A stretch of DNA of 64,000 nucleotides from Brotaphodocola catenula (GTDB lineage: Bacteria > Bacillota > Clostridia > Lachnospirales > Lachnospiraceae). This document shows, one piece after another, positions 1,253 through 30,719 of the stretch. Both the position numbers and the translations under genes were made by a program. The notes below the pieces were generated by a model that worked only from the letters and a program-made list of their open reading frames with translations, was not told the origin of the DNA and made no database searches. The stretch spans positions 1 through 64,000 of the forward strand of contig JAJEPU010000013.1 in NCBI GenBank assembly GCA_020686985.1, in the 5' to 3' direction. The first letter of the stretch is position 1. Each line of letters opens with the position of its first letter.

Positions 1253-2455
1253 ATGAGTGAAAAGAAAAAAAGTGGTGGCGCGCTCTTAGGTGCAGCATTC
1301 TTGATGGCAACATCTGCAATCGGACCAGGTTTCCTTACTCAGACATCCACATTTACGGGGCAGTACCATGGAAGTTTCGGCTTCGTTATTCTGGTATCGG
1401 TGATTCTGGCGGCAATCGCACAGATTAATATCTGGCGTGTTCTCTGTATCACGGGTCTGCGCGGTCAGGAAGTGGCAAACAAGGTTTTCCCGGGACTGGG
1501 TTATTTTGTAGCCTTCATGGTTGTTCTCGGTGGTCTCGTCTTTAACATCGGTAATGTCGGTGGTGGAGCACTTGGACTGAACACTCTGCTCGGTGTTCCG
1601 ACAACGGTTGGATACATCATCGCAGGAGCAATCGCAATTGCGGTATTCCTGTTTAAGAACGCAAAGGCAGCGATGGATACGCTGACCAAGGTTCTCGGCG
1701 CAGTCATGATTGTGGTTATCTTTATTGTAATTATTGTAGTTAAGCCTCCGGTAGGAGAGGCAGTGGCAAATACATTTGCACCGTCAACTGGTATTCAGCC
1801 GTTATTCCCGGCAATCCTGACCCTGATGGGCGGAACCGTCGGCGGTTACATAACATTCGCAGGAGCACACAGACTGATCGATGCCGGTATCACCGGTAAA
1901 GAAAATTTGAACGAGGTAAACAGAAGTTCTGTAATGGGTATGCTGATTGCAACCGTTGTTCGTATCTTCCTTTTCCTCGCAGTTCTCGGTGTTGTTGCAA
2001 AGGGAGCAGAGCTTGATGCTTCCAACCCGGCAGCAAGTGCATTCCGTCAGGGTGCAGGTGAGCTCGGTTACCGTTTCGCAGGACTGGTTCTTCTGTGTGC
2101 AGCAGTTACCTCGATCATCGGTGCAGCTTACACCTCCGTTTCCTTCTTAAAGACTTTCAGCAAATCGATTGAGAAGAATGAGAATGCAGTCATCATCGCG
2201 TTCATCGTGGTTTCCACAGCAATCATGGTTGTTCTTGGAAATCCGGCAACTCTTCTGGTTGTCGCAGGTGCATTCAACGGACTGATCCTTCCGATCACCC
2301 TTGGTATCTGCCTGATCGCTTCCCAGATGAAGTCGATCATGGGAGAAGATTATCATCATCCGACGATCCTTCTGGTTCTTGGAATTATCGTGGTAATCTT
2401 ATCTGCATACATGGGAATTCCGACCTTCTTGACAAAGATGGGCGGTCTGTTCTAA
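1253..2455 (+). CDS. NRAMP-like membrane transporter (YcsG type)
   Basis: A 400-residue integral membrane protein with about eleven hydrophobic segments. It belongs to the NRAMP superfamily branch found with pxp genes (YcsG beside ycsF-kipI-kipA in Bacillus). The TM1 region reads AIGPGFLTQT and lacks the DPGN metal-binding motif of MntH-type transporters, and the MPH motif expected in TM6 is not visible (GGYITFAGAH instead). Metal transport is therefore doubtful. Position at the head of the pxp operon suggests uptake of 5-oxoproline or a related substrate; this is inference. Start at 1253 follows ACAGGAGGGC. Confidence 0.8.
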   Translation: MSEKKKSGGALLGAAFLMATSAIGPGFLTQTSTFTGQYHGSFGFVILVSVILAAIAQINIWRVLCITGLRGQEVANKVFPGLGYFVAFMVVLGGLVFNIGNVGGGALGLNTLLGVPTTVGYIIAGAIAIAVFLFKNAKAAMDTLTKVLGAVMIVVIFIVIIVVKPPVGEAVANTFAPSTGIQPLFPAILTLMGGTVGGYITFAGAHRLIDAGITGKENLNEVNRSSVMGMLIATVVRIFLFLAVLGVVAKGAELDASNPAASAFRQGAGELGYRFAGLVLLCAAVTSIIGAAYTSVSFLKTFSKSIEKNENAVIIAFIVVSTAIMVVLGNPATLLVVAGAFNGLILPITLGICLIASQMKSIMGEDYHHPTILLVLGIIVVILSAYMGIPTFLTKMGGLF

Positions 2456-2470
2456 TTTGAGAAATTGATG

Positions 2471-2506
2471 GAAATGGGCGCAGTTTTGTGGCTGTGTCCA
2501 TTTTCC
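2471..2506 (+). terminator. imperfect terminator hairpin between transporter and pxpB
   Basis: GAAATGGGCGCAG pairs with CTGTGTCCATTT (two G-U pairs) around an eight-base loop, followed by TTTT. The stem is fairly weak and the T tract short, so it may only lower transcription of pxpB and downstream genes relative to the transporter. Confidence 0.45.
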
Positions 2507-2585
2507 GATTCATTAAAAACAATTCATCTAAAAATTGATTTAAGATTCAAAAGACCTTTTTAAATGAAAGAAGGAGATTCTTGGC

Positions 2586-3314
2586 ATGAGTGAAATCAGT
2601 ATTCTGACAGCAGGTGACAGTTCCCTGTTGATTCAGTTTGGAAATGAGATCAGCCCAGAGATCAACCAGAGAATCAAGGCGACGGTTCAGCTGATGAGAG
2701 AACAGCACATTGAGGGTGTTCTCGATGTGATTCCGGCATTCTGCTCTCTGTTGATCAACTACGATCCGCGTGTAATCTCTTACAGCGAGATCACAAAGCG
2801 AATGAGAAAACTTCTGAAAGTGGAGACGAAGGCAGAAGATGAAAAGAAGAAAGTCTTCGAGATTCCGGTTTGTTATGGCGGAAAGTATGGCCCGGATCTG
2901 GCATACATCGCAGAGCATGCGGGAATGACGGAGGAGGAAGTCATTGCCCTGCACAGCTCGAAGGATTATCTGATCTATATGCTCGGATTCCTTCCAGGAT
3001 TCTGTTACCTCGGCGGACTCGATGAACGCCTTCACACTCCGCGACTGGCAACCCCGAGAATCAAGATTGACGCGGGAAGCGTCGGAATCGGTGGTTCTCA
3101 GACCGGTATTTATCCGATGGATTCACCGGGTGGCTGGCAGTTGATGGGAATGACTCCGGTGAAGACCTACGATCCGGAGCGCGAAGTTCCGATTCTTGTG
3201 GAAGCTGGTGATTACATTCGATTCGTTCCGGTGGACGAGGAAGAATATCTGCGAATAAAGGAACTGGTCGAGCGGGGAGAATATGAGTGTACCGTTCGCG
3301 AAGGTGAGGTGTAA
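2586..3314 (+). CDS. pxpB: 5-oxoprolinase subunit B (KipI / AHS1 family)
   Basis: A 242-residue cyclophilin-like AHS1-domain protein. With PxpA and PxpC it forms the prokaryotic ATP-dependent 5-oxoprolinase, which opens pyroglutamate to glutamate. Recognisable family segments include GDSSLLIQFG near residue 11, the central YMLGFLPGFCYLGGL and the RIKIDAGSVGIGG and PGGWQLMG stretches. The same fold forms half of the carboxyltransferase domain in urea carboxylase. The start follows GAAGGAGATTCTTGGC. pxpC begins one base after the stop. KipI in Bacillus inhibits the KinA kinase, but here the metabolic neighbours favour the enzyme role. Confidence 0.92.
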   Translation: MSEISILTAGDSSLLIQFGNEISPEINQRIKATVQLMREQHIEGVLDVIPAFCSLLINYDPRVISYSEITKRMRKLLKVETKAEDEKKKVFEIPVCYGGKYGPDLAYIAEHAGMTEEEVIALHSSKDYLIYMLGFLPGFCYLGGLDERLHTPRLATPRIKIDAGSVGIGGSQTGIYPMDSPGGWQLMGMTPVKTYDPEREVPILVEAGDYIRFVPVDEEEYLRIKELVERGEYECTVREGEV

Positions 3315-3315
3315 T

Positions 3316-4323
3316 ATGGGAATCCGTATCTTAAAAGCCGGACTGCTCACAACCGTTCAGGATCTCGGAAGAACGGGATACCAGAGCCAGGGATTCGGCG
3401 TTTCGGGCGTTATGGATGTCCGGTCATTTAAAATAGCAAATCTTCTGATTGATAATCCGGAGAATGAGGCCGTTTTGGAGTTCACTCTGATCGGTCCGAC
3501 CCTGGAATTCACCTCTGCTTCGATCATCGCGATCACAGGAGGAGATTTCCATCCGGAAGTAAACGGAGAGCCGGTGCCGATGTACACCGCCCTCTATATG
3601 AATAAGGGAGACATCCTGAAATTTGGAAGTGCAAGAACCGGAAGCCGTGGTTACATTGCCTTTTCCGGTTATTTAAAAATCCCGGTAGTCATGGGAAGCC
3701 GATGCACGAGCTTAAAGAGTAAGATCGGTGGTTTCAAGGGAAGAAAGCTGATGGAGGGAGATTACATCAGTTTCCGAATCAAGAGAAACTACCTTCCGTT
3801 TTTCCTCTCAAGAAAGCTCAATCTCAATGAGTTCGATCAGGAGAGTGTGACTCTTCGCGTGGTCATGGGACCGCAGAACGATATGTTCAGCAAGCAGGGA
3901 ATCCGCAATTTCCTGAACGAGGAGTTCACGGTGACGAGTGATTTTGACCGAATGGGTTGCCGACTCGAGGGACCGTTCATCGCGCCGAAGACGACATCCG
4001 ACATCATCTCAGAGGGAATTGCCCTCGGTTCGATTCAGGTTCCGTCACACGGCAAGCCGATTATTCTGCTTGCAGACCGCCAGACGACAGGCGGATATGC
4101 AAAGATTGCGACCGTGATCAGCGTGGATATCCCGAAGCTGGTACAGAGAAAAACGGATCACAAGATTCGTTTTCAGGAGGTTTCGGTTGAGGAAGCACAG
4201 CATCTGTATCAGGAGGAAGAGAAAGAGCTTGCCGCTATGCGCATGCAGATCCACAAGCCGTGTAAGGAAGTTCTCGAGTGCAGACAGGTTGCAAAGCGCC
4301 TGAGAAGACTCTTTGCTGATTAA
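3316..4323 (+). CDS. pxpC: 5-oxoprolinase subunit C (KipA / AHS2 family)
   Basis: A 335-residue AHS2-domain protein, partner of PxpB in the 5-oxoprolinase complex. Family segments are GLLTTVQDLGRTGYQSQGF near the N-terminus, ALEFTLIGPTLEF-like strands, and the C-terminal ILLADRQTTGGYAKIATV. The ATG at 3316 is used because AAGGTGAGGT overlaps the pxpB stop just ahead of it; an in-frame ATG at 3283 lies inside pxpB and has no site of its own. The one-base gap to pxpB implies coupled translation. The next gene encodes a biotin carrier, an unusual neighbour for a plain PxpABC enzyme. Confidence 0.92.
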   Translation: MGIRILKAGLLTTVQDLGRTGYQSQGFGVSGVMDVRSFKIANLLIDNPENEAVLEFTLIGPTLEFTSASIIAITGGDFHPEVNGEPVPMYTALYMNKGDILKFGSARTGSRGYIAFSGYLKIPVVMGSRCTSLKSKIGGFKGRKLMEGDYISFRIKRNYLPFFLSRKLNLNEFDQESVTLRVVMGPQNDMFSKQGIRNFLNEEFTVTSDFDRMGCRLEGPFIAPKTTSDIISEGIALGSIQVPSHGKPIILLADRQTTGGYAKIATVISVDIPKLVQRKTDHKIRFQEVSVEEAQHLYQEEEKELAAMRMQIHKPCKEVLECRQVAKRLRRLFAD

Positions 4324-4404
4324 AGATTTAAAGATGGGAATTTATTTAAGTCATTTTGCGATTTCAGAACATCGATGAAAAATAGGGATAAGGAGATTGT
4401 TCAT

Positions 4405-4845
4405 ATGGATTTAGAGAAGATTGAAGGACTGGTAAAAATTATTGAGAATTCTTCCCTGACGGAGTTTTCGATCAAGGATGGCGATACAAAGATTACGATG
4501 AGCAAGCTGACTCATCCGCCGGTAGTGACGACCGGAATTGCGCCGACTCCGGTTCCGGCAACTGCACAGCCGACCGCAGAGACAAAGGAAGAGGAGGCAG
4601 ATGACATCGAGCTGATCCTCGCTCCGATCGTCGGTACGTTTTACTCTGCATCTGCGCCGGACGTTCCGGCATTTGTAAAAGTCGGAGATCGCGTGAAGAA
4701 TGGTCAGACGGTATGTATTCTTGAGGCAATGAAACTGATGAATGAGATCCAGTGCGACTATGACTGCGAGATCGAGGCTGTTCTTGTGAGCAACGAGCAG
4801 AAAGTAGAATACGGTCAGCCACTGTTCCGTGTAAGGAAATTATAA
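4405..4845 (+). CDS. accB: biotin carboxyl carrier protein (AccB type)
   Basis: A 146-residue biotin carrier. Residues 1-40 resemble the AccB N-terminal helix (KIEGLVKIIENSSLTEF), residues 43-65 form a Pro/Ala/Thr-rich flexible linker, and the C-terminal biotinyl domain carries the canonical EAMKLMN motif with the biotinylated lysine near residue 110. The ATG at 4405 follows ATAAGGAGA; the ATG at 4375 adds ten residues and has no clear site. It would carry carboxybiotin made by the downstream AccC. No accA or accD carboxyltransferase gene lies in the window, so the acceptor enzyme could be the neighbouring PxpB-PxpC pair rather than fatty acid synthesis. Confidence 0.88.
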   Translation: MDLEKIEGLVKIIENSSLTEFSIKDGDTKITMSKLTHPPVVTTGIAPTPVPATAQPTAETKEEEADDIELILAPIVGTFYSASAPDVPAFVKVGDRVKNGQTVCILEAMKLMNEIQCDYDCEIEAVLVSNEQKVEYGQPLFRVRKL

Positions 4846-4864
4846 GAGCGGGGAGGAGCGGACG

Positions 4865-6211
4865 ATGTTTGAAAAAATACTGATTGCCAATCGAGGCGAG
4901 ATTGCGGTCCGCATCATCCGGGCGTGCAGAAATATGGGAATCCGCAGTGTTGCGGTGTATTCAAAGGAAGATCAGGACAGTCTTCATGTCCAGCTCGCGG
5001 ATCAGAGAATCTGTATCGGTGAGGGACCTGCGAAAAACAACTATCTGAACATGGATCAGATTATTATGGCAGCAAAAAACATGGGTGCGGATGCGATTCA
5101 TCCGGGCTATGGATTCCTGTCAGAGAACAGTGAGTTTGTGCGCCGATGCAAGGAAAATGGCATTGCGTTCATCGGTCCGGAGGCAGATGTCATCGATCGT
5201 ATGGGAAACAAGTCCCATGCGAGAAAGACAATGATGGATGCAGGTGTTCCGGTTGTTCCGGGAACGAGAGAGCCGGTCTATGACGCTGAGGTCGGAAAGA
5301 AGCTGGCGAAAGAGATCGGTTATCCGGTGATGATCAAGGCTTCCTCCGGTGGTGGCGGAAAGGGCATGCGTGTCGCTGAGAATGAGGACGAGTTTGAGTT
5401 CCAGTTTGGAATGGCACAGAGAGAGTCTGCAAATGCATTTGGTGACGATACGATGTACATTGAACGTTATATACAGAATCCGCGCCATGTTGAGATTCAG
5501 ATCATGGCAGATTCGTTCGGAAATGTGGTTGCTCTCGGAGACAGAGACTGTTCCGTGCAGAGAAATCACCAGAAGCTGATTGAGGAATCCCCGTCCCCGG
5601 CAGTGAGCGATGAGATGCGTGCAGAGATGAACAAGTATGCGATTCTTGCAGCAAAGACGGTTGGCTACACGAATGCTGGAACAATCGAATTCATCGTTGA
5701 TCCGAAGGGGCACTTCTATTTCATGGAGATGAATACGAGAATCCAGGTTGAGCACGGTGTTACGGAGATGGTGACTGGAACTGATCTAATTATCGAGCAG
5801 ATCCGCGTGGCAATGGGAGAACCGCTGAGCTTTACGCAGGAGGATGTGCGCCCGAGAGGTCATGCGATCGAGTGCAGAATCAATGCGGAGATCCCGGAGA
5901 AGAACTTTATGCCGAGCCCGGGTGTTGTCAGACACCTTCATCTTCCGGCAGGAAATGGAGTTCGCGTTGATACCGGACTTTACACCGGATACCGGATTCC
6001 GTCCGAGTACGACTCGATGATCGCAAAGGTGATCGTGCATGCTCCGACGAGAGAGGCGGCGCTGATGAAGATGCGCTCTGCACTCAATGAGATGCTTGTG
6101 ATCGGTGTGGAGACGAATCTGGATTTCCAGTATCAGATTATGAGACATCCGATTTTTGCAGAAGGAAAGGCAGATACCGGATTTATCGAGAATGCCATGC
6201 ATATCAAATAA
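4865..6211 (+). CDS. accC: biotin carboxylase (AccC type)
   Basis: A 448-residue ATP-grasp biotin carboxylase that uses ATP and bicarbonate to carboxylate biotin on the carrier. The N-terminal FEKILIANRGEIAVRIIRA, the ATP loop KASSGGGGKGMR, the RDCSVQRNHQKLIEE segment and the EMNTRIQVEH catalytic segment are all present and length is normal for AccC. One oddity is EHGVTE where most biotin carboxylases have EHPVTE. The gene starts 19 bases after accB behind GGGGAGG. Position inside a pxp operon, without carboxyltransferase genes, suggests a dedicated rather than housekeeping copy. Confidence 0.9.
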   Translation: MFEKILIANRGEIAVRIIRACRNMGIRSVAVYSKEDQDSLHVQLADQRICIGEGPAKNNYLNMDQIIMAAKNMGADAIHPGYGFLSENSEFVRRCKENGIAFIGPEADVIDRMGNKSHARKTMMDAGVPVVPGTREPVYDAEVGKKLAKEIGYPVMIKASSGGGGKGMRVAENEDEFEFQFGMAQRESANAFGDDTMYIERYIQNPRHVEIQIMADSFGNVVALGDRDCSVQRNHQKLIEESPSPAVSDEMRAEMNKYAILAAKTVGYTNAGTIEFIVDPKGHFYFMEMNTRIQVEHGVTEMVTGTDLIIEQIRVAMGEPLSFTQEDVRPRGHAIECRINAEIPEKNFMPSPGVVRHLHLPAGNGVRVDTGLYTGYRIPSEYDSMIAKVIVHAPTREAALMKMRSALNEMLVIGVETNLDFQYQIMRHPIFAEGKADTGFIENAMHIK

Positions 6212-6269
6212 AGATGGCGCTGGTATGATATGTATAGATATAGGCTAGGGAAGACGGGAGGAGAAGACA

Positions 6270-7037
6270 ATGTATCGTGTAGATTTGAACAGCGATCTTG
6301 GAGAGAGCTTTGGACGTTATACACTTGGAATGGATGACAAGGTGATTCCGTTAATCACATCTGCAAACGTGGCATGTGGATTTCATGCATCCGATCCGGT
6401 TGTGATGAAGAAGACGATTGAGATGGCAAAGGAGGCAGGCATCCGTGTCGGAGCACATCCGGGATATCCGGATCTGATGGGATTCGGCCGTCGAAACATG
6501 AATGTCTCTCCGGCGGAGGCGAAAGCCTACACCCTTTACCAGATTGGCGCTCTGGATGCATTCTGCAAGGCATCCGGTGTGGAGATGCAACATGTAAAAC
6601 CGCATGGCGCTTTCTATAACATGGCAGCAAAGGATTACAAGCTAGCAAAGGGAATCTGTGAGGCAATTGCAGAGTACAACCCGAAGCTGATTCTGATGGC
6701 ACTTGCAGGAAGTGAGATGATCCGTGCAGGACAGGACTGCGGACTGCGCACCGCATCTGAGGTTTTTGCAGACCGTGCCTATGAGGAGGACGGAACGCTC
6801 GTGGCAAGAACGAAAGAGGGCGCAATGATCACCGATGAGAATGAGGCGATTGCACGCGTGATCCGCATGGTCAAGGAGCAGAAGGTTCAGGCAATCACCG
6901 GAAGGGACATCTCCCTAAAGGCAGATTCGATCTGCGTACATGGAGATGGAGCAAGTGCACTTGCATTTGTCGCAAAGATCCGCGAGTCGTTTGCGCGCGA
7001 GGGCATCGAGATCTGCCCGCTTGCAGATATCGTATAA
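6270..7037 (+). CDS. pxpA: 5-oxoprolinase subunit A (LamB/YcsF family)
   Basis: A 255-residue LamB/YcsF protein, a deacetylase-like barrel that supplies the hydrolytic half of the PxpABC 5-oxoprolinase. Family signatures are DLNSDLGESFG at the N-terminus, ANVACGFHASDP near residue 33, GAHPGYPDLMGFGRR and VKPHGAFYN. It is last in the operon, 58 bases after accC, behind GGGAGGAG. Its stop codon lies inside a 28-base repeat that also covers the stop of the transglutaminase gene at 53066, and an intrinsic terminator follows at 7107. Confidence 0.93.
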   Translation: MYRVDLNSDLGESFGRYTLGMDDKVIPLITSANVACGFHASDPVVMKKTIEMAKEAGIRVGAHPGYPDLMGFGRRNMNVSPAEAKAYTLYQIGALDAFCKASGVEMQHVKPHGAFYNMAAKDYKLAKGICEAIAEYNPKLILMALAGSEMIRAGQDCGLRTASEVFADRAYEEDGTLVARTKEGAMITDENEAIARVIRMVKEQKVQAITGRDISLKADSICVHGDGASALAFVAKIRESFAREGIEICPLADIV

Positions 7038-7059
7038 TTCAGGGTGGATGCGCAGTGAT
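7032..7059 (+). repeat. 28-base repeat across a stop codon, copy 1
   Basis: This stretch, which includes the pxpA stop codon TAA at 7035-7037, matches 26 of 28 bases of 53061-53088, which includes the stop codon of the transglutaminase gene. The shared core is GTGGATGCGCAGTGAT. The two genes are unrelated in sequence, so the match is not from gene duplication. Confidence 0.75.
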
Positions 7060-7106
7060 AGCGAGTTTGAAGTAATTCTGAGATTCTGATAGGAAGAATT
7101 TTTGAG

Positions 7107-7146
7107 GGAGTGAGACAGAATTTTCGTTCTGCTCACTCCATTTTTT
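7107..7146 (+). terminator. intrinsic terminator of the pxp operon
   Basis: GGAGTGAG and CAGAA on the left pair with TTCTG and CTCACTCC on the right, with one bulged A and the loop TTTTCG, followed by a six-base T run at 7141. Confidence 0.88.
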
Positions 7147-7179
7147 GTTCTTTCATAGGAAACTTCGTCCCATTCCCTA

Positions 7180-7208
7180 TTGACGTTGTAAAAAAAATCA
7201 GTTATGAT
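7180..7208 (+). promoter_or_regulatory. promoter of the pur operon
   Basis: TTGACG at 7180-7185 and TATGAT at 7203-7208 are separated by 17 bases. The remaining leader of about 65 bases is AT-rich and too short for a purine riboswitch. Confidence 0.7.
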
Positions 7209-7281
7209 ATTGATAAGTAATAATTCATTTACAAGCACTAATTATAAGAATTACTAATATAATAATAAAGGAGAGCTTACA

Positions 7282-7794
7282 ATGGCAAAAGTAGGAATTG
7301 TGATGGGAAGCGACTCTGATATGCCGATTATGGCAAAGGCAGCAGAGATTCTGGACAAGTTTGGAATTGATTATGAGATGACGATTATTTCTGCACACCG
7401 TGAGCCGGATGTGTTTTTTGACTGGGCAAAGTCCGCAGAGGGAAAAGGAATCAAGGTGATTATCGCAGGTGCCGGAAAGGCAGCTCATCTTCCGGGTATG
7501 TGCGCAGCACTCTTCTCCCTTCCGGTTATCGGAATTCCGATGAAGACTTCCGATCTCGGCGGAGTGGATTCTCTCTATTCGATCGTGCAGATGCCGTCCG
7601 GAATTCCGGTTGCAACCGTGGCAATCAACGGCGGTGCAAATGCAGGAATTCTTGCAGCGAAGATGCTTGCAATGTCTGATGAGGCTCTCCTCGAGAAAGT
7701 AAAGGCATATGCAGAGAACTTAAAGAACGATGTTGTGAAGAAGGCAGAGAAGCTCGAGAACATCGGTTACAAGGAATATCTGGCACAGATGTAA
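7282..7794 (+). CDS. purE: 5-(carboxyamino)imidazole ribonucleotide mutase
   Basis: A 170-residue PurE that makes carboxyaminoimidazole ribonucleotide in de novo purine synthesis. The GSDSDMPIMAKA nucleotide loop, SAHREPD, and GAGKAAHLPGM segments are visible, and the length is normal. No purK appears in this window, so whether it uses N5-CAIR from PurK or CO2 directly cannot be settled here. Start follows AAAGGAGAG. It heads a four-gene operon with purM, purN and purD. Confidence 0.95.
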   Translation: MAKVGIVMGSDSDMPIMAKAAEILDKFGIDYEMTIISAHREPDVFFDWAKSAEGKGIKVIIAGAGKAAHLPGMCAALFSLPVIGIPMKTSDLGGVDSLYSIVQMPSGIPVATVAINGGANAGILAAKMLAMSDEALLEKVKAYAENLKNDVVKKAEKLENIGYKEYLAQM

Positions 7795-7890
7795 GAAATT
7801 CGTGAGTGTGAAGGTACTGAACAGTCACATTTATTCTAAAAAACATGTAGAAAACACAGTCGCGGATCGGGCGACAGAACGGAGAAAAAG

Positions 7891-8922
7891 ATGGATTATA
7901 AGAAAGCCGGAGTGGATATCGAAGCAGGTTACAAGTCAGTAGAGCTGATGAAAGAGCATGTAAAGAAAACCATGCGTGAGGAAGTATTAGGCGGTCTCGG
8001 CGGATTTTCCGGAGCATTTTCCCTCGCAAAGATCAAGGAGATGGAAGAGCCGGTTCTGCTGTCCGGAACGGATGGATGTGGTACGAAGGTAAAACTTGCA
8101 ATCATCATGGACAAGCATGACACGATCGGTATCGATGCCGTAGCAATGTGCGTGAACGATATCGCATGTGCAGGCGGTGAGCCTCTGTTCTTCCTCGACT
8201 ACATCGCATGTGGCAAGAACTATCCGGAGAAGATTGCAGACATCGTAAAAGGTGTGGCAGAGGGATGTCTCCAGTCTGAGGCAGCTCTGATCGGTGGTGA
8301 GACTGCGGAGCATCCGGGGCTGATGCCGGAGGAGGACTACGATCTGGCTGGTTTTGCAGTTGGTGTCTGCGATAAGAAAGAGATGATTACCGGCGAGCAG
8401 TTGAAGGCTAGCGATGTGCTGATCGGTATGGCTTCCACCGGTGTTCACTCCAATGGTTTCTCTCTGGTTCGCAAGGTATTTGAGAACGAGATGACGAAGG
8501 AAGGTCTTGACACTTACTACGACGAGCTTGGCAAGACCCTCGGTGAGGCTCTGCTTGCACCAACAAGAATCTATGTGAAGGCACTCAAGAGCGTGAAGAA
8601 GGCTGGTGTGAAAGTCAAGGCTTGCAGTCATATCACAGGTGGCGGTTTCTATGAGAATGTACCGCGTATGCTCAAGGAAGGTACCCGTGCAGTGATCAAG
8701 AAGGACAGCTATCCGGTTCCGCCGATCTTTGGAATGCTTGCAAAGAAGGGCGATGTCGCAGAAGAGATGATGTACAACACCTTCAATATGGGTATCGGAA
8801 TGATCGTTGCAGTAGATCCGGCAGATGTAGACAAGGCGATGAGCGCAATCCGTGAGACCGGAGATACCCCGTATGTGATCGGTTCGATCGAGGATGGTGA
8901 AAAGGGAGTGACCTTATGCTGA
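7891..8922 (+). CDS. purM: phosphoribosylformylglycinamidine cyclo-ligase
   Basis: A 343-residue AIR synthetase that closes the imidazole ring from FGAM with ATP. The N-terminal MDYKKAGVDIEAG, the GTDGCGTKVKLA loop and GGGFYENVPRML are family hallmarks. It starts 96 bases after purE behind GGAGAAAAAG and overlaps purN by seven bases, so the two are probably translationally coupled. Confidence 0.96.
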   Translation: MDYKKAGVDIEAGYKSVELMKEHVKKTMREEVLGGLGGFSGAFSLAKIKEMEEPVLLSGTDGCGTKVKLAIIMDKHDTIGIDAVAMCVNDIACAGGEPLFFLDYIACGKNYPEKIADIVKGVAEGCLQSEAALIGGETAEHPGLMPEEDYDLAGFAVGVCDKKEMITGEQLKASDVLIGMASTGVHSNGFSLVRKVFENEMTKEGLDTYYDELGKTLGEALLAPTRIYVKALKSVKKAGVKVKACSHITGGGFYENVPRMLKEGTRAVIKKDSYPVPPIFGMLAKKGDVAEEMMYNTFNMGIGMIVAVDPADVDKAMSAIRETGDTPYVIGSIEDGEKGVTLC

Positions 8923-9512
8923 GAGTCGGAGTAATGGTTTCCGGAGGTGGAACGAACCTCCAGGCGATTCTGGATGCGGTGGACAGCGGAAAAGTCACGA
9001 ATGCTGAGGTTGTGACCGTAATCAGCAACAATCCAAATGCCTATGCCTTAGAGCGTGCAAAAAAACATGGAATACCTGCAATCTGCATCTCCCCGAAGCA
9101 ATTTGAGACGCGCGAGGCATTCAACGAAGCTCTGCTTGAGCAGGTCGATGCATGCAACCTTGACCTGATTGTTCTTGCTGGTTTTCTCGTGAAGATTCCG
9201 GAGAAGATGGTCGAGAGGTACCAGCATCGGATCATCAACATTCATCCGTCGCTGATTCCGTCCTTCTGCGGAGTCGGCTACTATGGACTGAAAGTGCATG
9301 AAGCGGCTCTTGCGCGCGGAGTCAAGGTGACCGGAGCGACGGTTCACTTTGTGGATGGTGGAATGGACACCGGCCCGATCATTTTGCAGAAGGCGGTCGA
9401 GGTAGAAGAGGGCGATACGCCTGAGATTTTACAGCGCAGAGTCATGGAGCAGGCAGAGTGGGTGATTCTGCCGAAGGCGATTGATCTGATAGCAAACGGA
9501 AAAGTGAAATAG
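8916..9512 (+). CDS. purN: phosphoribosylglycinamide formyltransferase
   Basis: A 198-residue folate-dependent GAR transformylase. The N-terminal VMVSGGGTNLQAI nucleotide loop, INIHPSLIPSF with catalytic Asn and His, and TGATVHFVDGGMDTGPI with the catalytic Asp are all present. The ATG at 8916 overlaps the purM stop codon, with AAAGGGAGTG just upstream. It uses 10-formyltetrahydrofolate in the third step of purine synthesis. Confidence 0.95.
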   Translation: MLRVGVMVSGGGTNLQAILDAVDSGKVTNAEVVTVISNNPNAYALERAKKHGIPAICISPKQFETREAFNEALLEQVDACNLDLIVLAGFLVKIPEKMVERYQHRIINIHPSLIPSFCGVGYYGLKVHEAALARGVKVTGATVHFVDGGMDTGPIILQKAVEVEEGDTPEILQRRVMEQAEWVILPKAIDLIANGKVK

Positions 9513-9622
9513 GATATACAGATCGAGCGTATAGATCAAAATCAAACATATAGATCGAATATATAAAAAAACATACAGGTAAAATATATAATAGGTAGAA
9601 CATACAGACGGGAGGACACAGA
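9513..9622 (+). other. AT-rich spacer with short iterated motifs before purD
   Basis: The 110 bases hold repeated ACAGATC / ATAGATC words (four in about 45 bases) and several ATATA tracts, ending in GGGAGGACACAG before the purD start. No hairpin or terminator was found. It may be a simple low-complexity spacer. Confidence 0.4.
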
Positions 9623-10897
9623 ATGAAAGTTCTGGTTGTTGGTGGCGGTGGCAGAGAGCACGCAATTGTGTGGAAACTGGCAGAGAGCCCGAAAGTAGAT
9701 AAGATTTACTGTGCACCGGGCAATGCAGGAATTGCAGAGCTTGCAGAGTGCGTAAATATCGGTGTGATGGAGTTTGACAAGCTCGCAGAGTTTGCAAAGG
9801 AGCATGAGGTGGATCTGACAGTTGTCGCACCGGATGATCCGCTTGCAGGTGGCGCGATCGATGTGCTTGAGAAAGCCGGACTGCGCGCATTCGGACCGAG
9901 AGCAAACGCAGCGATTCTCGAGGGATCGAAGGCATTCTCGAAAGATCTGATGAAGAAATACGGCATTCCGACGGCAACTTACGAGACTTTTGACACGCCG
10001 GAGTCCGCACTCGAGTATTTGGAGACGGCTAAGATGCCGATCGTACTCAAGGCAGATGGTCTTGCACTCGGAAAAGGTGTGCTGATCTGCATGAACCGCG
10101 AGGAGGCAAAGGCAGGTGTGAAGACGCTGATGCTTGACAAGCAGTTCGGTTCTGCCGGAAACCGCATCGTTGTTGAGGAGTTTATGACCGGACGCGAGGT
10201 CTCGGTTCTGTCCTTTGTGGATGGAAAGACGATCCGCATCATGACTTCCGCTCAGGATCACAAGCGCGCGAAGGATGGCGATCAGGGACTCAATACCGGT
10301 GGTATGGGAACCTTCTCTCCGAGCCCATTCTACACCGAGGAAGTCGATGCATTCTGTCGGGAACACATCTATCAGCCGACGGTTGACGCGATGAGAGCAG
10401 AGGGCAGAGAGTTCAAGGGAATCATTTTCTTTGGACTGATGCTGACCGCGGAGGGTCCAAAGGTGCTCGAGTACAATGCACGTTTCGGTGATCCGGAGAC
10501 TCAGGTTGTGCTTCCGCGCATGAAGAACGATCTGTTTGAAGTGTTTGAGGCATGCATCGATGGAACTCTCGATCAGGTGGAGCTGGAGTTTGAGGATAAT
10601 GCGGCGGTTTGCGTGATGCTTGCATCCGACGGTTATCCGGAGCACTATGAAAAGGGATACCCGATCAGCGGTCTTGAGAAATTCAAGAACGCAGAGGGCT
10701 ACTATGCTTTCCATTCCGGTACAAAGTTCGATGAGAACGGACGCATTGTGACAAATGGAGGACGAGTGCTCGGCGTGACCGCACTCGGCAAAGACCTCAA
10801 AGAAGCTCGCGCGAATGCTTATCAGGCAACAGAGTGGGTGGAGTTTGAGAACAAGTACATGCGCCACGATATCGGACATGCAATCGACGAAGTGTAG
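9623..10897 (+). CDS. purD: phosphoribosylamine-glycine ligase
   Basis: A 424-residue ATP-grasp GAR synthetase that joins glycine to phosphoribosylamine. The N-terminal MKVLVVGGGGREHAIVWKL, the ATP-loop residues around VLKADGLALGKGV, and EYNARFGDPETQVVLPR are typical. It is the last gene of the pur operon; a strong hairpin terminator begins 33 bases after the stop. Confidence 0.96.
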   Translation: MKVLVVGGGGREHAIVWKLAESPKVDKIYCAPGNAGIAELAECVNIGVMEFDKLAEFAKEHEVDLTVVAPDDPLAGGAIDVLEKAGLRAFGPRANAAILEGSKAFSKDLMKKYGIPTATYETFDTPESALEYLETAKMPIVLKADGLALGKGVLICMNREEAKAGVKTLMLDKQFGSAGNRIVVEEFMTGREVSVLSFVDGKTIRIMTSAQDHKRAKDGDQGLNTGGMGTFSPSPFYTEEVDAFCREHIYQPTVDAMRAEGREFKGIIFFGLMLTAEGPKVLEYNARFGDPETQVVLPRMKNDLFEVFEACIDGTLDQVELEFEDNAAVCVMLASDGYPEHYEKGYPISGLEKFKNAEGYYAFHSGTKFDENGRIVTNGGRVLGVTALGKDLKEARANAYQATEWVEFENKYMRHDIGHAIDEV

Positions 10898-10930
10898 GAT
10901 GTGATGTGCTGAGATATTTACACATATATA

Positions 10931-10974
10931 AAAACGGGGATACGACACAGCGTTGTGTCGTATCCCCGTTTTTA
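10931..10974. terminator. bidirectional intrinsic terminator
   Basis: A perfect 19-base stem (arms 10931-10949 and 10954-10972) with a four-base loop, A-rich on the left and T-rich on the right. It lies between the convergent purD and sodium symporter genes and ends directly before the symporter stop codon, so it should serve both. Confidence 0.93.
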
Positions 10975-12342
10975 TTACATCGAGATCCATCCAAATGCAT
11001 TTGCCACAGAGCTAATCAGAATGATTCCTGCAAACAGCGGGCACAGATAACGGATCATGAAAAGGAAAATCTTTTTACGGCGGAAGGGCTGTCCATTCAA
11101 GGTAACCTCTTCCTCAATTTTTTCGACACCTACGACTCTTGACACGAACAGGCAGGTCGCAATCGCTGCGATCGGCATCATGACCGAGTTTGTCAGGAAA
11201 TCAAAAAAGTCCAGAAACTGCATGCCGATGATTGTCACATTTGCGAGCGGTCCGTATCCGAGGCAGGAGAGTGTGCCGAGAAGAACCATGATCACTCCCA
11301 TAAATATGGTTGATTTCTTTCGGCTCCAGTGAAGCTCATCCTCAAATGTAGAGACGGCGCTCTCTGTCAGCGCAATCGAACTTGTCACTGCGGCAAACAG
11401 GACGAGCAGGAAGAACAGGATACCGACTCCGGTTCCAAATCCCATGTTTGCAAAGACCTTAGGAATTGTGATGAACATCAGTGCAGGTCCGGCCTGAAGC
11501 GTGTTAGGATCTCCACCGGAGAACGCAAAGACTGCCGGAATGATCATCAGACCAGCCATGATTGCGATTGCGGTGTCGAAAATCTCAACGTGCTGGGTGG
11601 AATCCTCGATCGAAGTCTCCTTTTTCATGTAGGAACCGAAGGTAATCAGGATTCCCATTGCAATCGAGAGCGAGTAGAACATCTGTCCCATCGCAGATAC
11701 AACCGTCATCCACGAAAAATGTGCGACATTTGGGATGAGGAAGTATTTCACACCATCAAGCGCACCCGGTCTCGTCGTGGAATAGATCGCAATGATGACG
11801 GACAGTACAACCAGGATCGGCATCATGAATTTGGAAACGCGCTCAATTCCGTTTCGGACACCGGCATAGATGATGCCGAGGGTAAAAAACGTAAATACGA
11901 TGAAACAGATCTCCGTGGAAAGTCCGTTGGAAATAAAGCTGGAGAAATATCCGTCAGAAGCGAGTGTCTGCGCATTTCCTCTCAGATACTCAAACAGGTA
12001 TTTGATAACCCATCCGCCAATGACGGAATAGTACGGCACAATCAGAATCGGAATGATTGCATTGATCCATCCGCCAAATGATCGAGCTTTTGATTTTCCA
12101 AAACTCTGAAATGCACCTACCGGACTTTTCTTTGTCATGCGTCCGAGTGAGGTCTCTGCGATGATGATGGAGTAACCGAAGGTCAGTGCGAGGATGATAT
12201 AGACGAGCAGAAAGATTCCGCCTCCATATTTTGCTGCCAGATATGGAAATCTCCATATGTTTCCCAGTCCCACAGAAGCGCCGGCGGCAGACAGGACAAA
12301 GCCGAGCTTTCCGGAGAAGGTACTTCTCTTGTGTTTGTGCAT
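10975..12342 (-). CDS. sodium-dependent amino acid transporter (NSS/SNF family)
   Basis: A 455-residue neurotransmitter:sodium symporter family protein with about eleven to twelve membrane segments. The hallmark LGFVLSAAGASVGLGNIWRFP in TM1, which holds the sodium and substrate sites, is near the N-terminus, followed by YGGGIFLLVYI. Bacterial members of this length take up amino acids such as tyrosine or tryptophan. The start at 12342 (MHKHKRSTFSG) follows AGAAGGGG; a more upstream ATG gives an unlikely 16-residue extension. The substrate is not determinable from sequence. Confidence 0.88.
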   Translation of the reverse strand: MHKHKRSTFSGKLGFVLSAAGASVGLGNIWRFPYLAAKYGGGIFLLVYIILALTFGYSIIIAETSLGRMTKKSPVGAFQSFGKSKARSFGGWINAIIPILIVPYYSVIGGWVIKYLFEYLRGNAQTLASDGYFSSFISNGLSTEICFIVFTFFTLGIIYAGVRNGIERVSKFMMPILVVLSVIIAIYSTTRPGALDGVKYFLIPNVAHFSWMTVVSAMGQMFYSLSIAMGILITFGSYMKKETSIEDSTQHVEIFDTAIAIMAGLMIIPAVFAFSGGDPNTLQAGPALMFITIPKVFANMGFGTGVGILFFLLVLFAAVTSSIALTESAVSTFEDELHWSRKKSTIFMGVIMVLLGTLSCLGYGPLANVTIIGMQFLDFFDFLTNSVMMPIAAIATCLFVSRVVGVEKIEEEVTLNGQPFRRKKIFLFMIRYLCPLFAGIILISSVANAFGWISM

Positions 12343-12666
12343 AATAATAACCCCTTCTGTATTTATAAAAATAACCTGGATATAGCACAAGAAAAGGCGG
12401 AGTACCTGAATTCCATGATATAGATGAACTTATGAGTGATCCTAACCTTTTGTGCATGAGAATTAGTGTACCACAAGAGAGAAGGAAAAGCAATTTGAAT
12501 ACACTGGAAAAGAGTTTTCGGATGCCCTTTTATTTGACAATGAGAGTGAATGGTGGCAAAATAAAAAGACGTAACCGTATGAATAAAAAGAACCCCTGAT
12601 AATGATTTTGTGAGTGAAAACTCAAATGTTCAGGGTAGCTTTGGAGAGTACTCGGAAGGAGAAAAA
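12343..12666. promoter_or_regulatory. divergent intergenic region with leader hairpin
   Basis: Separates the symporter (minus) and the AEC transporter (plus). On the plus side CCCTGA (12594-12599) pairs with TCAGGG (12630-12635), and inside it GAGT pairs with ACTC around a GAAA loop (12612-12623). This lies 31 bases ahead of the AEC start, so it could influence AEC expression. A TTGACA at 12534 is a candidate -35 box for the plus-strand gene, with only a poor -10 partner. Confidence 0.4.
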
Positions 12667-13614
12667 ATGGAAAATCTGATTTTTAGTTTGAACGCCACAA
12701 TTCCCATCTTTTTATTGATGGTTTTGGGCGTTTTTTTTCGTCGCGTTGGGCTGATCAAGGGGGAGCTGATCGGTGGTCTCAACCAGTTTGTGTTTAAGGC
12801 AGCATTGCCCGTTTTGCTGTTTGGCGACCTCGCAGTGGAAGATTTTACCTCTGTCTGGGATACACGCTTTGTCGTGTTCTGTTTTGGCACAACACTTTTA
12901 AGCATCACAATTGTTTATCTGATCTCGCTGACACTCAAGGATTCCTCGATTCGAGGAGAATTTGTGCAGGGATCATATCGAAGCAGCGCAGCGATTCTTG
13001 GAATTGCGTTTATCAAAAATATTTATGGCACATCGGGAATGGCACCGCTGATGATTGTCGGAAGTGTCCCGCTCTACAATGTGATGGCGGTGGTGGTTCT
13101 CTCCTTTATGCGTCCGGGACAGAGTGGGATGAGTGATCCGACCCTGCTTAAAAAGACTCTTCGCGGAATTGCGACAAACCCGATTATTCTGGGAATTTTT
13201 TTCGGAGCCCTGTGGTCAGTACTCAAGATCCCGATGCCAGCAATCATGCTAAAGACAGTCAATACTCTTGGCGGAATGGCAACTCCGCTCGGACTTATGG
13301 CGATGGGAGCCGGATTTGACTGGAAACAGGCAAAACGTGGAATGGGATCGGCATTCCTTGGCAGTTTTATGAAACTATTTGGACTCTGCGCGATCTTTCT
13401 TCCTGTGGCAGTCTTCTTCGGCTTCCGGGAGGCAAAATTGATTGCGATTCTCGTCATGCTTGGCTCAAGTACGACGGTCAGCAGTTATGTCATGGCCCGC
13501 AATATGGGACACGCCGGAGTTCTCACCTCAAGCATTGTCGCATTGACGACCTGCGGAAGTGCGTTTTCGTTGACGTTCTGGTTATATTTATTAAAGACAT
13601 TAGAGTTGATTTAA
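12667..13614 (+). CDS. AEC family transporter (auxin efflux carrier type)
   Basis: A 315-residue membrane protein with about ten hydrophobic segments. The start MENLIFSLNATIPIFLLMVLGVFFRRVG and the C-terminal segment with SSTTVSSYVMARNMG match bacterial AEC transporters, which carry malate, malonate or other small organic acids. The ATG at 12667 follows CGGAAGGAG; the GTG at 12610 lies within a hairpin. Its stop overlaps that of the convergent acetyltransferase gene, sharing TTAA, and no terminator separates them. Confidence 0.85.
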   Translation: MENLIFSLNATIPIFLLMVLGVFFRRVGLIKGELIGGLNQFVFKAALPVLLFGDLAVEDFTSVWDTRFVVFCFGTTLLSITIVYLISLTLKDSSIRGEFVQGSYRSSAAILGIAFIKNIYGTSGMAPLMIVGSVPLYNVMAVVVLSFMRPGQSGMSDPTLLKKTLRGIATNPIILGIFFGALWSVLKIPMPAIMLKTVNTLGGMATPLGLMAMGAGFDWKQAKRGMGSAFLGSFMKLFGLCAIFLPVAVFFGFREAKLIAILVMLGSSTTVSSYVMARNMGHAGVLTSSIVALTTCGSAFSLTFWLYLLKTLELI

Positions 13615-30356: not shown

Positions 30357-30382
30357 CATAAAATCATTCTGTCCAAGATAAA

Positions 30383-30719
30383 TGGACCTGAGGGGAATCG
30401 AACCCCTGTCCGAAAATCAATTCCCTGTTCTTCTACTATCATAGCCGGTTATTTGACATTCCCTCCGCCACACGAAAACAGGCACCCTTGTGGCTTCAGT
30501 AGCTTCATGATACGCCCATACACGCAAAGCTTAATGTATGTCGTTTCTCACATAGTCGATGCCAGATTCTTAATGTGTGAGTGCACTAAGGCTGACAGCA
30601 GCACTTAGGCTGCGTATGCTAAATTATCTTCAGCGTTTAATTTTAATTTTGCCATTTAACGCATCGCATGCGGATAGCTTCACCAGCTGCATGATCCCCG
30701 TCGAAACCAGTACAAGCCC
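30383..30719 (-). ncRNA. ssrA: transfer-messenger RNA
   Basis: The 5' end GGGCTTG pairs along seven positions (two G-U) with CAGGTCC at the 3' end, forming the tRNA-like acceptor stem. The 3' T arm (GGGGTTCGATTCCCC) and the 5' TTTCGACGGGG of the D-loop region are conserved tmRNA sequences. The tag reading frame lies at 30605-30652 (minus) and encodes AKLKLNAEDNLAYAA then TAA. The 3' CCA is not encoded (ATTT follows), so it must be added. Ends were set by pairing; the primary transcript starts about 25 to 30 bases earlier. The repeat copy C sits just upstream of its promoter. Confidence 0.95.

Follow-up and report, generated by a model that had tools for sequence, protein, structure and literature searches.

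The closest described systems are a 5-oxoprolinase, a urea carboxylase and an operon of Staphylococcus aureus. PxpABC figures in the excerpted text of PMC13274462 as an ATP-dependent, three-subunit enzyme without a biotin step, and the same excerpts report that PxpT, 50% identical to YcsG, is needed for growth of Corynebacterium glutamicum on 5-oxoproline. For the urea carboxylase of Kluyveromyces lactis (KlUA), Lys1605 is given as the likely general base in the excerpts of PMC5770610. In S. aureus, a six-gene operon with pxpB, pxpC, pxpA, accB and accC is presented as a target of CcpE in the excerpted text of PMC11315280, and an operon with these genes is to that extent already in print. Here, we consider a related operon in Brotaphodocola catenula (Lachnospiraceae), located within the first 64,000 nucleotides of contig JAJEPU010000013.1 of assembly GCA_020686985.1 (hereafter the window), in which genes for a biotin carboxyl carrier (accB) and a biotin carboxylase (accC) stand between pxpC and pxpA. 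This gene order is real and conserved, and it is plausible, judging from the sequences, that AccBC supplies carboxybiotin to PxpBC, probably for action on 5-oxoproline.

The pxp operon of the window

The six genes announced by the original prediction (transporter, pxpB, pxpC, accB, accC and pxpA, all on one strand) were confirmed, and the features of the operon are as follows.

1253..2455, + strand: Nramp-like transporter (PF01566, 97.1 bits; far under the MntH cut-off)
2470..2505, + strand: RNA hairpin with a 16 bp stem and no T run, in the gap between transporter and pxpB (RNA fold)
2586..3314, + strand: pxpB (KipI fold, CT_C_D), with Arg153 aligned to the Lys of urea carboxylase (TIGR00370, PF02682, alignment counts)
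3316..4323, + strand: pxpC (KipA fold, CT_A_B), open reading frame from 3283 (TIGR00724, PF02626)
4405..4845 (start probable), + strand: accB, biotin carboxyl carrier of the acetyl-CoA carboxylase (ACC) type, open reading frame from 4375 (TIGR00531)
4865..6211, + strand: accC, biotin carboxylase (TIGR00514, 668.2 bits; stretch ADQRICIGEG)
6270..7037, + strand: pxpA (LamB/YcsF), ring-opening subunit (PF03746, 352.6 bits; NF003814, 383 bits)
7107..7148, + strand: intrinsic terminator at the operon's end (hairpin GGAGTGAG...CTCACTCC, then a T run)

The tight spacing that had been claimed holds for most of the operon, with gaps of 1 bp between pxpB and pxpC, 81 bp between pxpC and accB (counted from the probable accB start), 19 bp between accB and accC, and 58 bp between accC and pxpA. 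It fails between the transporter and pxpB, which are separated by 130 bp and a strong hairpin, the fold of 2456-2585 reaching -34.9 kcal/mol (z -3.64). The claimed terminator was recovered as a hairpin with its T run, and is absent from the output of a pattern scan for terminators. Neither accA nor accD lies in the operon, again as claimed, the accD over cut-off being on another contig (C28). Translation of pxpC probably starts at 3316, in view of the ribosome-binding site and of a MGIR start conserved in relatives, and the codon of the biotinyl Lys of AccB is found at 4732-4734, within EAMKLM.

Family models place each of the proteins. PxpB scores 227.9 bits against TIGR00370 (cut-off 145.55), AccB 150 bits against TIGR00531 (cut-off 115.2) and AccC 668.2 bits against TIGR00514 (cut-off 626.5), the latter two being of the ACC type; PxpA reaches 383 bits with NF003814 (cut-off 226). 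PxpC passes TIGR00724, a general domain-level model (289.7 bits, cut-off 230.2), and stays under the cut-off of the PxpC equivalog NF045499 (237.6 versus 500 bits), for which the share of characterized PxpC reaching 500 was not checked. PxpA, PxpB and PxpC are thus encoded together, which is the gene content of PxpABC. The urea carboxylase model TIGR02712 describes a single chain with a cut-off of 1303.85 bits, and none of the four separate proteins reaches it (PxpB 78.4, PxpC 181.6, AccB 26.6, AccC 544.7 bits). The transporter is 52.5-54% identical to pxp-adjacent transporters (Bacillus badius L136, L033, L244); it is probably of the YcsG/PxpT kind and could take up 5-oxoproline.

The mechanism that we consider most likely, with a probability of about 0.43, is a carboxybiotin-driven activation of 5-oxoproline by PxpBC, completed by PxpA, within an operon for 5-oxoproline utilization. 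The Nramp-like transporter would import 5-oxoproline, and AccC, judging from its family and its intact motifs, would carboxylate the biotin of AccB using ATP and bicarbonate. PxpB-PxpC would then replace AccA-AccD as the carboxyl acceptor and hand the carboxyl group to a lactam, most likely 5-oxoproline. Finally, PxpA would open the activated ring, and the carbamate would decay to glutamate and CO2. We favor this mechanism because the gene order is kept in 43 of 51 close loci versus none of 72 in draws from the phylum, because 10 of 17 genomes hold a separate fatty-acid accC and three of the 17 have a pxp accC without a detected accD, and because of the plasmid-borne module (two of six regions), ten Staphylococcus-like loci, a second combination of parts that we call type IV, and the mycobacterial complex 9yx5, each of which is described below.

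Distribution and descent of the linked loci

A locus was counted as linked when it had the order pxpC-accB-accC. In this sense, accB and accC follow pxpC in all 31 loci found by closeness to the PxpC of the window, a set biased to near relatives of that protein (in L065 and L077, the contig ends within accC), and in 12 of 20 further loci fetched from relatives. Two of these close loci, L089 and L103, have the same PxpC and are probably one locus recorded twice, and L095 and L096 have identical PxpC. Given this recurrence, the gene order is more than chance, and accBC is supported as a conserved member of this pxp operon. Across the wider phylum, PxpC was found in 50 of 149 genomes, the window's own counted, and accBC linkage in none of the 52 pxp loci fetched from that draw. 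A larger draw yielded a close PxpC in 84 of 398 genomes, and 20 further loci, taken among its best matches, also had no linkage; in ten of the 72 unlinked loci of both draws, the sequence after pxpC is shorter than 2.5 kb.

The guess that similar pxp-acc neighborhoods occur elsewhere was borne out in other Lachnospiraceae, in Staphylococcus-like genomes and on plasmids of Lactobacillaceae. In the class around genome G139, PxpC is present in 219 of 299 genomes, and accC lies within about 1 kb of pxpC in 14 of the 38 inspected, which were picked for several or weaker PxpC matches and hence give no rate. Ten of the 14 have the order pxpB-pxpC-accB-accC-pxpA-transporter. These Staphylococcus-like loci, most of which are taken from their gene order to be Staphylococcaceae, fit the six-gene operon of S. 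aureus in the excerpts of PMC11315280. Loci L171, L172 and L176, from Staphylococcus-like genomes, hold a second, very divergent PxpB/PxpC pair in which the conserved Arg region is altered, with no PxpA within the fetched stretch. In another genome (G592), a Bacilli locus (L248) combines a plain pxpB-pxpC-pxpA-transporter-DUF1445 cluster with a divergent accB-accC pair that looks like the fatty-acid kind (520-2430 and 3894-8450).

Among six plasmid regions opened, two, both from Lactobacillaceae, carry the acc-pxp module with pxpA and a transporter and without accA or accD. On the Lactiplantibacillus plantarum plasmid, genes for the carrier and the biotin carboxylase follow pxpB and pxpC, and after them come a DUF1445-type hydro-lyase gene, pxpA and the transporter gene, the whole cassette being flanked by transposase genes; the Limosilactobacillus fermentum plasmid record has the six-gene form. 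AccC of the L. plantarum type recurs at 95% identity or more in 13 plasmid records, one of which was opened. The recurrence in distant bacteria and on plasmids suggests that a 5-oxoprolinase can be biotin-driven.

A different assembly, type IV, was found in four of the 14 genomes (G681, G577, G506 and G610) and consists of a PxpB-like protein of about 300 residues, AccC, PxpA and a short biotin carboxyl carrier protein (BCCP) whose open frames have 87 to 108 residues; in G593, the set occurs without a linked AccC. In the PxpC tree, the type IV group (support 98) adjoins urea carboxylase (96) with a joint support of 96, and type IV PxpB retains the urea carboxylase Lys. The type IV AccC groups with yngH-type and urea carboxylase biotin carboxylases (labels assigned here), apart from the pxp AccC of the window's kind. 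Since the type IV AccC belongs to another clade, the combination of carboxylase, carrier, carboxyltransferase-like subunits and PxpA appears to have arisen at least twice from different parts, and we take this repeated combination as the strongest comparative evidence that the functional link is real. A second PxpB/PxpC-like pair lies 5 to 13 kb from the first in the type IV loci L160, L163, L170 and L175, with no carrier or carboxylase adjacent and with Lys in the PxpB-like protein.

The descent of these genes was followed in two quick trees. That of PxpC comprises 113 rows, including one in five of the Lachnospiraceae rows; that of AccC comprises 67, including 16 of 44 Lachnospiraceae pxp AccC (the window's among them), the broken open reading frame of L193 being dropped by length and L188 left out of the 35 AccC reference rows. 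The acc-linked rows are scattered over the PxpC tree, and the nearest neighbors of the window's PxpC clade are the plain Lachnospiraceae PxpC of L093, L097 and L098 (support 99). A single origin of the linkage is not the simple reading of this tree, as the starred branches need at least four changes, gain and loss being indistinguishable in a quick tree. The Lachnospiraceae pxp AccC form one clade (support 100), and a larger group (support 98), lying apart from the fatty-acid AccC of Bacilli, unites Lachnospiraceae AccC of both kinds with those of the Staphylococcus-like pxp loci, L. plantarum and L180. For the Staphylococcus-like pxp AccC, which stand apart from the Bacilli fatty-acid AccC, recruitment of accBC from the host's fatty-acid set is unsupported. 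A single clade of Lachnospiraceae, Staphylococcus-like and L. plantarum pxp AccC is compatible with the data (log-likelihood loss 1.25, p-AU 0.446), and because it is not rejected, transfer of the operon with later loss also fits.

The motifs GGGGKGMR, RDCSVQRNHQK and EMNTRIQVEH are intact in the AccC of the window, and its ADQRICIGEG stretch is typical of Lachnospiraceae pxp AccC. Thirty-five other biotin carboxylases agree without exception at 78 alignment columns; 29 of 31 pxp AccC deviate at one to five of these each, and two at none. Glu47, present in all 35 references, is replaced by Gln in the L. plantarum protein and in all 16 Lachnospiraceae pxp AccC that the tree includes; the Staphylococcus-like pxp AccC have Gln, His or Tyr at this position in six cases and Glu in four, and L. 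fermentum pxp AccC retains Glu47.

Taken together, the locus may, more tentatively than the mechanism itself, represent a biotin-dependent 5-oxoprolinase that is a split, Arg-type cousin of the urea carboxylase/allophanate hydrolase system, spread partly by plasmids and assembled as a theme at least twice from different biotin carboxylases. Outside the operon, the gene on its 3' side looks like purE, and a tmRNA gene lies at 30380-30719 of the window on the minus strand (126 bits).

Possible roles of AccBC beside PxpBC

Several results weigh against carboxybiotin-driven activation, beginning with the published description of PxpABC given above. The original prediction had likened PxpBC to the carboxyltransferase of urea carboxylase, and the residues do not support it, since Arg replaces the catalytic Lys and most marks of plain PxpBC are retained. 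By inspection, KYNPAR of urea carboxylase aligns with TPRLATPR of the window's PxpB, which would place the Lys at Arg153. Arg occupies this position in 73 plain, 44 Lachnospiraceae, ten Staphylococcus-like and one L. plantarum PxpB rows, and Lys in four urea-carboxylase-type and nine type IV rows (the plain PxpB/PxpC set excluded L135, L171, L172, L176 and type IV rows). The plain-PxpB marks D104, H123, R153, P157, Q172, W184 and G208, as well as the marks M213, G246 and Y261 that set plain PxpC apart from urea carboxylase, are present in 44 of 44 Lachnospiraceae rows. By its sequence, the pair is a 5-oxoprolinase-type PxpBC with adjacent biotin genes and no urea carboxylase. No BCCP or biotin carboxylase (BC) fused to a plain-type PxpBC was found among the fetched open reading frames, in a search whose carrier queries failed to recover even the BCCP domain of urea carboxylases and which a short fused carrier could escape; the multi-domain frames were eight PxpB-PxpC fusions and three urea carboxylases plus one cut copy. 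In addition, 20 other loci from Bacilli (L248 among them), most of which were selected for a long PxpC frame, have no accBC inside the pxp operon, and the module is not present in the other four plasmid pxp regions opened (Fusobacterium, Methylobacterium, Rhodococcus and Bacillus badius). Finally, the Lachnospiraceae fatty-acid AccC stand beside the Lachnospiraceae pxp AccC clade (support 91), which makes recruitment from their own fatty-acid set possible.

Predicted structures of PxpC (mean pLDDT 59.1) and PxpB (44.0), built from shallow alignments of near relatives, were too poor for an active-site comparison, and the PxpC model was used only for listing PDB matches and their titles. A split urea-carboxylase-like locus was encountered in the window's own family and left out of the count of linked loci (L110 in G188, 7975-11316, minus strand). 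It encodes separate AccC-like, CT_C_D-like (with KYNPAR) and CT_A_B proteins and a small biotinyl protein (12527-12787), and adjoins a methionine gamma-lyase-like gene; no pxpA was found there.

The alternative that survives best, which we nevertheless regard as unlikely, is that the AccBC of the operon is an ordinary biotin half-enzyme working with AccDA or a MmdA-like protein encoded elsewhere, that its genes are merely co-regulated with pxp, and that PxpABC relies on ATP only. Published interpretations agree with it: in their excerpted texts, PMC11315280 assigns the accBC of the S. aureus operon to fatty-acid synthesis, and PMC12427679, a genome paper on L. pentosus that lists pxpB/pxpC and, apart from them, an additional copy of BC and BCCP among group-specific genes, interprets this copy as an additional acetyl-CoA carboxylase. 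The ACC type of AccB points in the same direction. The original prediction had named, as a case that would overturn it, an operon whose accBC are the only ones of the genome and serve fatty acid synthesis. The window's genome (3.32 Mb, 112 contigs, with Blautia and other Lachnospiraceae as named close relatives) instead contains a second, separate fatty-acid accBCDA set. Two accC exceed the cut-off: that of the pxp operon, whose product is 64% identical to the fatty-acid AccC, and another on contig C28 (708.2 bits); the sole accD over cut-off lies beside the latter and is fused to accA (580 residues). The C28 cluster is read as fabF-accB-fabZ-accC-accDA, with fab names given by inspection, and the genome yielded a single CT_A_B (PxpC-type) place. 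A weaker accD-type match on contig C21 (40.6 bits) corresponds to a MmdA-like carboxyltransferase of 527 residues (L008 in G000:C21, 526-2109, minus strand), which scores 457.8 bits against TIGR01117, under the cut-off of 998.8. This protein could be another partner or user of the operon's AccBC, and its presence lowered our confidence in the carboxybiotin mechanism.

A census of accC and accD in 17 acc-linked Lachnospiraceae genomes, all drafts, gives a divided answer on independence from fatty-acid synthesis. In its favor, 10 of the 17 (G000, G149, G150, G153, G160, G162, G169, G170, G176 and G192) have a separate, full fatty-acid accC, which makes the copy in the operon dispensable for lipids there, and accD lies away from the pxp locus in all 14 genomes that have one. 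In three others (G151, G164 and G171; completeness 99, 91 and 90%, with 7% contamination in G171), the census turned up no accC besides that of the pxp operon, and the accD search gave no match at E up to 1e-20. If accD is truly missing, pairing with AccDA is impossible there, and the pxp AccC of these genomes may exist without an acetyl-CoA carboxylase. A dedication of AccBC solely to PxpBC in these three genomes was considered and dropped, as only accD was sought there and MmdA-like proteins are possible, such partners having been sought in the window's genome only. On the other side stand G154, G165, G167 and G168, where no accC other than that of the pxp locus was found and accDA lies elsewhere; their pxp AccC probably also serves acetyl-CoA carboxylase, replacing a lost copy. 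No fab gene was recognized in the flanks (about 1.5 kb) of accDA in these four genomes, and their accD-accA fusions are longer (L209-L212, open frames of 635-687 residues). The two plasmid cassettes, which carry pxpA and a transporter and no accA or accD, also speak against a half-enzyme.

Alternatively, though improbably, the operon could encode a biotin-dependent carboxyltransferase for another substrate (lactam, cyclic ureide or amide), with plain PxpABC handling 5-oxoproline where both exist. In two genomes, the acc-linked pxp locus does coexist with a plain one (L094 with L098 in G168; L103 with L097 in G176). In the Lachnospiraceae PxpC, moreover, Gly118-Gly119, 99% conserved in plain PxpC, is replaced by Ser (93%) and Tyr (100%), and the PxpC of the window remains under the NF045499 cut-off. 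Against this stand the probable YcsG/PxpT kind of the transporter, the ordinary family of PxpA, and the DUF1445 gene that the L. plantarum cassette shares with two Staphylococcus-like loci, a gene that we take to be linked to D-glutamate cyclase.

A contact between PxpBC homologs and a biotin carboxylase complex, as the prediction implied, has a precedent by title in PDB 9yx5, the long chain acyl-CoA carboxylase complex of Mycobacterium smegmatis with MSMEG_0435-MSMEG_0436 bound. According to title and sequences, its chains include PxpC and PxpB homologs and the biotin carboxylase subunit AccA3, and the PxpB-like chain has Arg, not Lys. The bound pair may act there as carboxyltransferase or as inhibitor, or may be a bystander. 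The excerpts of PMC4617892 report induction of the mycobacterial pair under nitrogen limitation; the excerpted main text of PMC4347857, on pull-downs of mycobacterial acyl-CoA carboxylase, leaves allophanate hydrolase unmentioned, and the excerpts of PMC11001197 and PMC10433963 contain nothing on a PxpBC-AccA3 link. The open-access literature yielded no paper in which biotin was tested in PxpABC. The least probable alternative, an AccBC-PxpBC complex of mutual regulation in which PxpBC, for example, inhibits AccBC or stores carboxybiotin and no lactam is carboxylated, would agree with 9yx5 and with the induction under nitrogen limitation, and leaves the pxpA and transporter genes beside accBC in the plasmid cassettes unexplained.

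If carboxybiotin does drive PxpBC, an enzyme common among bacteria also exists in a biotin-driven form, and some of the second accBC copies of gut bacteria, staphylococci and lactobacilli are genes of glutamate salvage rather than the fatty-acid genes of their annotation. Such an activity would help to explain the fold common to PxpBC and the carboxyltransferase of urea carboxylase, and would bear on the role of the PxpBC homologs on mycobacterial acyl-CoA carboxylase. Even if the mechanism proves false, these loci affect how accBC copies are to be read in genome annotation and lipid studies.

Comparison with known systems

With PxpABC, as encoded by pxpTABC of C. glutamicum and the corresponding Bacillus subtilis genes, the operon of the window shares PxpA, PxpB, PxpC, a transporter probably of the YcsG/PxpT kind and residues of the plain type; it differs by the presence of accB and accC between pxpC and pxpA, by a PxpC below the NF045499 cut-off and by changes specific to Lachnospiraceae. 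With the S. aureus operon of PMC11315280, it shares the five named genes in one operon; the transporter comes first in the window and last in the ten Staphylococcus-like loci, and biotin dependence is no subject in the excerpted text of that paper, where accBC is placed under fatty-acid synthesis. The mycobacterial complex 9yx5, compared by title and sequences only, likewise brings PxpC and PxpB homologs together with a biotin carboxylase complex and has an Arg-type PxpB-like chain, and differs in being an acyl-CoA carboxylase. Finally, the urea carboxylase of K. lactis (3va7, 5i8i) has the same BC, BCCP, CT_A_B and CT_C_D parts, with detectable homology, whereas the window encodes them as four split proteins, with Arg in place of the catalytic Lys and PxpA in place of allophanate hydrolase.

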